64,000 nucleotides of DNA from Apostichopus japonicus (lineage: Eukaryota; Echinodermata; Holothuroidea; Aspidochirotida; Stichopodidae), in contig NC_092568.1 of NCBI RefSeq assembly GCF_037975245.1, positions 18,559,001 through 18,623,000 on the forward strand, given 5' to 3'. The notes below the pieces were generated by a model. It did not search any database, was not told the origin of the DNA, and saw nothing but the letters and a program-made list of their open reading frames with translations. A program made the position numbers and the translations under genes. Every line of letters starts with the position of its first letter. The first letter of the stretch is position 1. Positions 12,887 to 44,631 of the stretch are shown here, in pieces.

Positions 12887-15800
12887 ATGTTAACAGCGTT
12901 GAAATCCTCCAAACTAATCCTTCTAATTTGTGTGTGTTTCGTGGAGGACATTCTTGCTACCACTCCAGAGTATGACGTCACCGAATTTTGGAACGTTTCT
13001 GTCACCGAGTCTCCCATATCGATTGTGAACGATGGGTCAATATATAAACCGAAAATACCTCTTCACATCGCAGCTTTTTACGCAGATGGTGAGATCTGGG
13101 ACGGAAGCGGAATGATCCCAGCTGTTGAGTTAGCGGTGGATCACGTGAATGCTCAACCCAATATTCTGAGGGATTATGAACTACGTGTAATCTGGAAAAA
13201 CTCGAATGTGAGCTTAACTAAATATCACTTCTTTCATTTCATTTCGTTTCATTTCCATTCTTCCCATTGCCAAGCAAATTATAATTTGAACTGATAAGTT
13301 TTGCAGTTCATGAAAAGTTGGTTCTTACTTTTGATTCGAGACAAAGAAATAAATCCAATATAGCGGGAAGGTTTTTTTTAATAAGGGGTGTAGCCAGGGA
13401 GTTGAAGTCGTTGCAATCGAGCTCATATGGGGTATTTCTTTCTTTCTGAGGGAGGGGGTTGGGGTCGTCCCCCGCAAAATAGGTGAAACTTTAGTACTTA
13501 AGTTGTATATTCTGAGGCATATTTATAGGTAATAGATTAGGTCTATTTAGTTCTATATGCAATTTGTGCTAATAAATACTCTGATGTTTTGTTTGCGATT
13601 GAAAAAAAGGGGGAGATGGGGCAGGGATGTACAAGTACCACATACGCCTCTTGGTTCTGCGTCTGCCTCTGTGAAAGATTGAAATCAAGTGTTTTCAAAT
13701 GTTTTTGGGATTATTTATGATTACACGATATGAGATCTCCCAGATGTATGGATGTGATGTTTTTCATTATTACACCAAACGCAGTGTCGATCTTCGGAAG
13801 GTATATGGGCGTTCCATAGACATATAGTAGAAGAACCTCAGAAATTGATCTTCCTAGGGCCTGCCTGTTCGACGGATGCGCAGCCTGTGGCAGAGACATC
13901 GCATTTTGCGAATTTGGTGACGGTGAGTGGTTTTCTTATTTTCTTTCTGGAATTGAAACAGTTTTAGAAATAGTTTGGAATAGTTGGCTACTAAGGCTGA
14001 CAGCTTTCAATGCACAGCAAAAGATTCACATAGCATGCTGCAGCATCAAGCTGGACAAACCTTTCTGGTACAACATAAGTTAGGACTTCTGACGACTAGA
14101 CATATCCAAATAGGTTATATATGTGCATATAGAGTTATATCCGACTCTTTATAATTGTGTGTAATATCAACGCTATGCCACTTACGTAAATAGTATATGC
14201 TTTTACAAAATATTCTATTACTATTGGAACACGACACAACATGAATTAATGCGACGGTCTAAATCATCGAAGAAACATTTTGCCAGTTATTTATGGCATT
14301 ATATATCTTTACTGTAATATCCTTCAATGATTGGGTTCCTTTTCCCTACTGTTTGTATGTATGTATGTATGTATGTATGTATGTATGTATGTATGTATGT
14401 ATGTATGTATGTATGTATGTATGTATGTATGTATGTATGTATGTATGTATGTATGTATGTATGTATGTATGTATGTATGTACCCAGGAGAAAATTCCTGT
14501 TAATACCTGTTACAATTTCAATTGGTTTTAACCGGAACCAACAGGGACTAACAGGTACCTGTTAACGACAACTGGTTTTAACAGGTATTGTGACCAAAAC
14601 CAGTATATACCAGTTAATTGCCTGTTGCAACAGGTAAATTACCTGTAAGCTGTAACAGGTACCAATTGGTTTTAACAGGTACCTGTTAAACCAGTTGCTT
14701 TCAACAGGTAAATACCTGTTGAAAACAACTGGTTTAACAGGTACCTGTTGAAAACAACTGGTTTAACAGGTAACTGTTGAAAACAACTGGTTAAACAGGT
14801 ACCTGTTGAAAACAACTGGTTTAACAGGTACATGTTGAAAACAACTGGTTTAACAGGTACCTGTTGAAAACAACTGGTTTAACAGGTACCTGTTGAAAAC
14901 AACTGGTTTAACAGGTACCTGTTGAAAACAACTGGTTTAACAGGTACCTGTTGAAAACAACTGGTTTAACAGGTACCTGTTACACCAGTTGCATTCAACA
15001 GGTACCAGTTGGTTAAAATTTCTGTCTCCACTTTAAGGTACATAATGGTGGATCACCGTTGTCAGGGAAGGTTTATGAGGGGAGGGGGGCTTGAAAATTT
15101 GTGTTTCTCATAAAGGGCTTATATGCAAAATAATGCAATTATTTCCTCTTTTTTTGCTCCCTTCGTTTTTTTCAACGTCGGACATCACGTCCCCAAAATT
15201 TTTTGTGGAGGTACTCTTTCCCCTGCCCCCCACCTTCCCCGCCCTCGCTGGCTTTGCCACTGCAAAGATGTGGTATAACCTATGTCTGATCACTGAATTG
15301 TTTATCCTATTTGGTACATTAAGGTAAAATGAAAAATTCACATATTAAATTTCTGAGAGAGTTCTTCCAGATAGTATATGAATACGTAGCATACACATAC
15401 ATCAAAAGATTGAGACGAGCTCGCATCTATATTTAGATCAGTGATTCATAGTCTAAGAAAGTAAGACACATATTGCCAAGTCAAGATCAAGATAAAAATA
15501 ATTAATGTTTAAATTGTATTATGATTTAATTCTTTCTTATTTACTGTTGTTTTAATTTTTTGATATACCCCTACCAAAAGGGTTACTTCGCTGCGCAGTC
15601 GCTGCGACTTCGCTGCGAAGGAATTCCTTCGCTACAAGACTTCGCAGTACTTCACTTTTACTGTGACTTTGCCGTAACTTCGCGACAGCAGAAATATTAC
15701 TTCGCCACAGGGTTTTGCTCCTGCGACTAGTCGCAGCAACATCACAGCAAAGGAATATGACTTCACAGGAGGCCCATCTTGTTGTAACTGGTCGCAGCTA

Positions 15801-44631: not shown

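Follow-up and report, generated by a model that had tools for sequence, protein, structure and literature searches.

A stretch of 64,000 nucleotides from the sea cucumber Apostichopus japonicus (assembly GCF_037975245.1, contig NC_092568.1, positions 18,559,001 to 18,623,000; hereafter the window) carries a gene, W, for a class C G protein-coupled receptor (GPCR) of the GABA-B type. As the protein aligns with solved receptors, a C-type lectin-like domain (CTLD) is nested inside its Venus flytrap, before the last segment. At least 16 related genes, W included, are found on its contig (C8). With moderate confidence, it is proposed that these genes would form an expanded, probably Gi/o-coupled, GABA-B-type family of recognition or chemosensory receptors, made in the lectin form and having a ligand other than GABA.

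Gene structure and domain composition

When rebuilt from the DNA, W was found to consist of 19 exons that join into one open frame, 955 codons long and closed by a stop, with AG preceding exons 2-19 and GT following exons 1-18. This bears out the original prediction, made from the letters of the window, of 19 in-frame GT/AG exons and 955 residues. The same prediction had claimed a class C, GABA-B-type receptor with a real CTLD. In the spliced protein, three Pfam domains pass their cut-offs: ANF_receptor at residues 78-440 (156.5 bits, cut-off 25.4), Lectin_C at residues 460-562 (45.4 bits, cut-off 22.6) and 7tm_3 at residues 610-867 (186.6 bits, cut-off 33.5). Thus, the membrane part (7tm_3) and the Venus flytrap (ANF_receptor) by which a class C GPCR is recognized are both present, and no cysteine-rich domain was found in the Pfam scan of the W protein.

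Matches to solved structures agree with the claim. Among class C receptors, those nearest to W are GB1 and GB2, the subunits of the GABA-B receptor. Its membrane part scores 228 bits (9JQX) and 227 bits (7C7S) against GB2 chains, compared with 166 and 151 bits against the highest-scoring GB1 chains of those two receptors, and the seven-transmembrane (7TM) part scores 33 bits against mGluR7. The flytrap is slightly nearer to GB1, with 213 and 208 bits against 192 for GB2. Here, 9JQX and 9JR0 are taken to stem from the fly and the other chains from human.

Position of the lectin-like domain and its probable route of entry

In a phmmer comparison with solved structures, the alignment of W with GB2 is split: W residues 70-441 correspond to GB2 residues 73-434, and W residues 599-904 to GB2 residues 465-785. 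The slot of the lectin lies between ..FTQFQ of GB2 and the approximately 30 residues that close the flytrap and lead to the first transmembrane helix (TM1). With the lectin removed, most GB1 chains align through the insertion point as far as the linker, whereas the GB2 chains mostly stop there. The missing end of the flytrap is encoded by exon 11, a counterpart of which is also found 3' of the lectin in the family members P6, A20a, A20b and A38. Because the GB2 alignment is split and exon 11 supplies the flytrap end, the lectin is placed inside the Venus flytrap, ahead of its last segment. A flytrap combined with a recognition module had been predicted, and both domains are indeed there; the module, however, sits within the flytrap and not beside it. 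The insertion point is presumably a beta-hairpin turn, as judged from class C flytraps in general.

The two lectin exons, 9 and 10, make up a symmetric phase 1-1 module with an internal phase 2 border. If they are skipped, the frame is kept and the protein reads ..QLQDFEETA.., while GB2 has ..QFQDS at the same spot. In a GABBR1-like gene on contig C22, the exon GTYHKIGYYSDATDNLTMVNTTEEIWP follows a phase-1 intron and ends in phase 1, like exon 11. The phase 1-1 module, the phase-1 intron of the C22 gene and the in-frame skip product together suggest that exon shuffling probably carried the lectin into a pre-existing phase-1 intron, in a single event that preceded the spread of the family. Ten lectin half-domains of the family gave a best E value of 0.18 against 4.2 kb of the C22 gene (from 627 bases before the exon 11 counterpart through the TM2 exon), and the array locus used as a positive control was matched.

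As to the source of the module, numerous Lectin_C matches at other places in the genome start at profile position 37-45, as exon 10 does, and a local donor with an intron at the position of the exon 9/10 split is plausible. The genome-wide list comprises the best 150 of 392 candidates and misses several true family members; among these 150, no Lectin_C match lies near the canonical-type genes on contigs C22, C16 and C14. A viral origin was considered and rejected, the match to poxvirus A33R being weak (E value 0.00064, below its cut-off) and that to Lectin_C far better. Nothing was matched in phage records, which says little.

A gene family with a shared layout

At least 16 family genes were counted on C8, nine outside a tandem array and seven within it; both genome searches, one with the lectin as query and one with the flytrap, score the best candidates only. 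The W lectin alone retrieves just the nearer members, and the lectins of A20a, A20b, A38 and the array were found with other queries or in the DNA that was read. The single odd receptor implied by the original prediction is, thus, one of at least 16 paralogues.

Ten genes were read as sequence (W, P1, P3, P4, P5, P6, A20a, A20b, A38 and the array gene f), with P5, A20a, A20b, A38 and f read in part only. All ten have the same pair of lectin exons in the same slot: lectin exons A and B come after the flytrap exons and are followed by exon 11 and then by the membrane exons. Array gene f shows this order from exon 8 through the two lectin exons and exon 11 to TM1. Lectin exon A is matched at eight sites of the array, seven of which have a flytrap exon match upstream and a TM1 match downstream. 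Each modelled paralogue has fitting AG/GT borders at the homologous position, and phases 1-2 and 2-1 were read without imposition in W and in the lectin exons of gene f.

Genes of the canonical type are also present in the genome. One on C22 is near human GB1 (exons 36-53% identical), and those on C16 (up to 62% identical) and C14 (52%) are near GB2. In a tree built from exons 6-8 and 11-14, without the canonical sea cucumber GB1 and GB2, nine family members split from human GB1 and GB2 with a support of 87; the placement of P6 has a support of 50.

The lectin-like domain

The isolated W lectin scores 51.7 bits against Lectin_C, with a query that is one residue (Y) short at the exon junction. 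It gives a near full-length match to the aggrecan CTLD (1TDQ_B, E value 5.9e-12), and the PLA2 receptor, CD94 and others are matched too. All seven distinct lectin domains of the family that were scored pass the Lectin_C cut-off of 22.6 bits, narrowly so in P6 (25.5 bits), A20b (26.6) and array gene f (23.9). The six cysteines are invariant over seven aligned sequences and present in all nine counted. By profile and by conserved cysteines, the domain is, therefore, a CTLD.

Classical Ca2+-dependent sugar binding by C-type lectins is marked by an EPN or QPD motif together with WND. WND is found in none of nine family lectin domains and EPN in two of them (P4 and P5), and the combination of motifs is thus absent; hence, classical Ca2+-type glycan binding is not expected and is judged unlikely for the family. 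Of the protein- or glycan-recognition module that had been predicted, it is the classical glycan type that loses ground.

The lack of a classical sugar site is also what a different reading would lead one to expect, in which the lectin serves only folding, dimerization or adhesion, has no ligand of its own, and the flytrap alone signals. C-type lectin-like folds often serve protein contacts. Against this stands the divergence of the sequences (exon 9 of six other members is 27-47% identical to that of W) while the cysteines stay, a pattern that a surface with varying partners would be expected to show, although this is a weak argument; such a purely structural role is considered possible, though doubtful. 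In the reading preferred here, the lectin-like domain would instead make a contact of its own.

Selection and constraint

The three closest genes, W, P1 and P3, differ by 0.02-0.04 synonymous substitutions per synonymous site. Their ratio of non-synonymous to synonymous rates (dN/dS) is 0.67-0.84 over the whole gene and 0.23-0.71 over the lectin, where changes are few. For P4 and P5, the ratio is 0.18-0.39, depending on the region. When the lectin of W is compared with those of P4 and P6, the synonymous sites are saturated, and 48% and 39% of the residues, respectively, are identical.

These values bear on the proposal that exons 9 and 10 are an optional cassette, so that a lectin-free, GABA-B-like receptor is the main product and the lectin form is minor or tissue-specific. 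GB1a, with its sushi domains, and GB1b differ in an analogous way. A phase 1-1 pair, the removal of which yields what reads like an uninterrupted GABA-B flytrap (compare QFQD of GB2), agrees with such a cassette. Yet, the pair is kept in ten of ten genes read, the six cysteines in nine of nine domains, and this in spite of synonymous saturation, which implies that the lectin form would be functional in whatever share it is made. The cassette is rated slightly less probable than the purely structural lectin. That exons 9 and 10 are always skipped, which the original prediction had named as one way in which it could fail, is opposed by the conservation. The receptor proposed here would be made with its lectin.

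The cytoplasmic tail (exons 18-19, 42992-44631) behaves differently. Non-synonymous and synonymous changes within the trio number 15:2 (W against P1), 17:2 and 8:0; the tail end ITAINDVV is retained despite these changes. The tail appears to evolve fast and is perhaps diversifying, perhaps relaxed.

Ligand pocket and coupling

In PMC12499500, the GABA contacts of GB1 are given as W65, S130, S153, H170, E349, Y250 and W278. The pocket was aligned for W, P1, P3, P4 and P6, the first three of which are near copies. S130 and W278 are retained in all five, while S153 of human GB1 is replaced by A and H170 by Y in all five. Y250 is F in W, P1 and P3 and Y in P4, the P6 exon lying outside the model; W65 and E349 have no safe placement in this alignment. 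The GABA pocket of a GABA-B receptor is, thus, not found. As two of seven contacts are replaced, GABA is not the expected ligand, and the W family is probably no GABA receptor. The designation as GABA-B type, therefore, stands for the class but not for the pocket.

Should W be an ordinary subunit of a GABA receptor, its additional domain being mere decoration, the retention of S130 and W278 in all five sequences and the flytrap that is slightly nearer to GB1 would be accounted for. The exchanges of S153 and H170, and that of Y250 to F in three of the four members with this exon modelled, speak against it, and separate GB1-nearer (C22) and GB2-nearer (C16, C14) genes exist. An ordinary subunit is, hence, considered improbable.

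The third intracellular loop of W (IPALNDSK) retains L686 of GB2, the position being taken from the chain numbering. In PMC12499500, L686 is described as a Gi contact. The GABA-B receptor is an obligate heterodimer of GB1 and GB2 that couples to Gi/o; of these traits, the retention of L686 is what can be seen in the W sequence. With a GB2-like membrane part and L686 retained, Gi/o coupling of the family is likely.

Paralogues and other features of the locus

An assembly error or a pseudogene, with lectin exons that stem from another gene, can be dismissed as practically negligible: P5, without exons 1-4 in 50 kb, does show that degenerate copies occur, but ten collinear copies with open exons, with 955 codons and no inner stop in W, P1 and P3, refute it for the family, and also exclude that 34986-36515 is misassembled or belongs to another gene, the other way in which the original prediction could have failed.

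False haplotype duplication was rejected as an explanation for all copies, diverged members being 39-53% identical to W over exons 6-8 and 11-14. In P1 and P3, both near copies, aligned DNA is 93.9% and 95.8% like that of W (a mean over pieces of at least 250 bases, exons and flanks) and the coding parts 97.3% and 98.2%. Exon 1 is 92.5% identical to that of W in P1, 94.4% in P3 and 44% in P4. It is likelier that W, P1 and P3 are real duplicates than haplotypes, P3 being inverted. P5 has no recognizable exons 1-4 and a 12-residue gap in exon 7 relative to P4, and it may be a decaying copy. The exons of W and the positions of the paralogues are listed in the table.

Table. Exons of W (positions in the window) and positions of its paralogues on contig C8
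Feature	Position	Strand	Description
exon 1	12887..13207	+	start codon, signal-peptide-like N-terminus (by eye), Venus flytrap start
exon 2	13785..13922	+	Venus flytrap
exon 3	27426..27596	+	Venus flytrap
exon 4	28618..28722	+	Venus flytrap
exon 5	29538..29603	+	Venus flytrap
exon 6	31106..31306	+	Venus flytrap
exon 7	32987..33241	+	Venus flytrap
exon 8	34354..34414	+	Venus flytrap to ..ITIQQLQ and first base of next codon; phase 1 out; GB2 alignment reaches here
exon 9	34986..35169	+	CTLD, first half, cysteines 1-3; phase 1 in, 2 out
exon 10	36325..36515	+	CTLD, second half, cysteines 4-6; phase 2 in, 1 out
exon 11	36822..36908	+	terminal segment of the Venus flytrap (FEETAIVTV...); phase 1 at both ends; GB1 counterpart YKKIGYYDSTKDDLSW
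exon 12	37635..37779	+	linker and TM1 (TM numbering by homology)
exon 13	38095..38233	+	TM2
exon 14	39098..39208	+	TM3
exon 15	40082..40189	+	TM4
exon 16	41038..41166	+	TM5
exon 17	42362..42550	+	intracellular loop 3 (GB2 L686 retained), TM6-7
exon 18	42992..43051	+	cytoplasmic tail start
exon 19	44425..44631	+	cytoplasmic tail and stop codon; C-terminus ..ITAINDVV
P1	C8:18.479-18.498 Mb	+	near copy of W; 955 codons, no inner stop
P3	C8:18.699-18.719 Mb	-	near copy of W; 955 codons, no inner stop
P4	C8:18.736-18.756 Mb	+	family member
P5	C8:~18.870-18.887 Mb	-	exons 1-4 not found within 50 kb (C8:18.862-18.912 Mb)
P6	C8:3.091-3.126 Mb	-	family member
A20a	C8:20.028-20.056 Mb	+	order seen within 10 kb
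A20b	C8:20.089-20.109 Mb	+	order seen within 10 kb; exon 8 outside piece
A38	C8:38.735-38.761 Mb	+	order seen within 10 kb
tandem array	C8:41.74-42.02 Mb		more diverged members

Some features of the introns may be added. About 12.5 kb of intron 2 (14414-26909) is absent from the corresponding intron of P1 and P3, the near copies; at both ends, this insertion reaches into, or is bordered by, (TGTA)n and CCTGTT-rich minisatellites. Within it, an open frame of 177 residues on the minus strand (17067-17600) has no Pfam match. Open frames at 29985-30293 and 32231-32715, also on the minus strand, resemble by eye the 3' end of reverse transcriptases of the long interspersed nuclear element (LINE) type; at 29985-30293 and 32231-32494, nothing passes a Pfam cut-off. 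Further minisatellites are found at 15722-16108 (unit of 61 bases), at 21526-22040 (unit of 26, also 176 and 202, bases) and in intron 11 at 37118-37525 (unit of 77 bases), the last of which seems longer in P3. Elsewhere in the assembly, contig 35 (16,099 bases) carries a COX1 that can be read sensibly with the echinoderm mitochondrial code (AAA as N), with what look by eye like ND4L and COX2 after it; this code and gene order are those of echinoderms. Further COX1 matches lie in several pieces on another small contig (C29:14745-31219); these are perhaps nuclear mitochondrial DNA or a second mitochondrial form.

Proposed mechanism

It is proposed that an ancestor of the GABA-B type took two CTLD exons into a phase-1 intron within the last part of its flytrap, and that the gene with the nested lectin multiplied thereafter. 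Nesting and copies can be read directly, while the insertion event is deduced from intron phase. The receptor would be made with its lectin and reach the cell surface as a dimer, coupling to Gi/o through the GB2-like third intracellular loop. The flytrap would recognize a ligand other than GABA, and the lectin-like domain would provide a second, Ca2+-independent contact, most likely for a protein or another surface ligand. Occupancy of the lectin on the flytrap could gate or tune lobe closure. A family of many diverged and partly arrayed copies would suit many external or self cues, as in chemosensing or cell recognition.

Several points weigh against this proposal. It is drawn from genomic sequence, and coupling, dimerization, surface location, ligand and chemosensory role are all predictions. 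As exons 9 and 10 can be skipped in frame, most of the product may be an isoform without the lectin. The lysines of the second intracellular loop of GB2 are, by eye, only partly retained in W. From the whole-gene dN/dS of the trio, constraint may be weak in some copies. In the array, one lectin site (41,770,848) has neither a flytrap nor a TM1 match, and two of nine TM1 matches (41,736,080 and 41,992,947) have no lectin match before them; the lectin layout may, hence, not be universal there. For most paralogue models, AG/GT borders were sought at the phase of W, and the agreement in phase is partly by construction. In the C22 gene, coverage is confined to the DNA 3' of the exon upstream of the phase-1 intron.

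Comparison with known receptors

GABBR2 and fly GB2 share with W a flytrap and a 7TM part without a cysteine-rich domain, the best 7TM structure match and L686 of loop 3. The tail of GB2 carries a coiled coil. The W family differs in the lectin within the flytrap, in a short tail without a coiled coil (by eye) and in being multigene. GABBR1 and fly GB1 give the best flytrap structure match (213 bits), and the GABBR1-like gene on C22 has a phase-1 intron at the matching exon; in the W family, however, S153 and H170 are replaced, and the extra domains of GB1a are N-terminal sushi domains. Long six-cysteine CTLDs, such as those of aggrecan, the PLA2 receptor and NK-type receptors, match the W lectin over nearly their full length, but that of W is encoded by two exons, nested in the flytrap of a GPCR and without WND.

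Vertebrate V2R and T1R are class C chemoreceptors multiplied in clusters, mGluR-like and with a cysteine-rich domain. The W family is likewise a clustered class C expansion, but a GABA-B-like one. A lectin fold on a multi-pass receptor is also found in polycystin-1, which is not known to be of class C. Latrophilin-like receptors (Gal_Lectin) and the class B subfamily 'GPRX' (Lectin_C) carry one too and, unlike W, are not class C receptors with a Venus flytrap; PMC8687355, from a table of which these two are taken, gives Sushi for GABA_B and is, among the papers listed, the only one that contains all three Pfam names.

The original prediction knew of no described GABA-B receptor with a CTLD, and this agrees with the open-access literature: among the matches listed, no paper dealt with a C-type lectin on a GABA-B receptor or on any other receptor of class C, protein databases and subscription papers being outside the scope. 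The matches listed for sea cucumber receptors and expansions likewise contained no such receptor. Predicted proteins of the same layout may exist unremarked in databases. In a 2020 GPCR survey of an older A. japonicus genome, five GABA-type receptors were reported, and few odorant receptors were found in sea cucumbers, animals that depend on chemical cues; the portion of its text that was available holds no word starting with lectin (PMC7042368). Similarly, no word starting with GABA occurs in the available portion of a 2026 preprint on the Holothuria glaberrima genome (PMC13228809).

Implications

What is found in A. japonicus is a GABA-B type that has become a family of at least 16 genes with a new domain inside the ligand-binding head. 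In well-studied animals, GABA-B receptors are a small and conserved set. The family also exemplifies the nesting of a domain in a Venus flytrap, probably through exon shuffling, in which the likely entry intron can still be seen. It is suggested, only tentatively, that sea cucumbers have in it a class of receptors new in kind, for chemosensing or recognition, in which a CTLD would have been shuffled into the flytrap of a GABA-B2-like GPCR that was then multiplied, so that the cleft would take a small molecule and the lectin a protein or surface ligand. As such, the family is a candidate for part of the missing chemoreceptor repertoire of sea cucumbers, and the question of that repertoire is thereby made testable.
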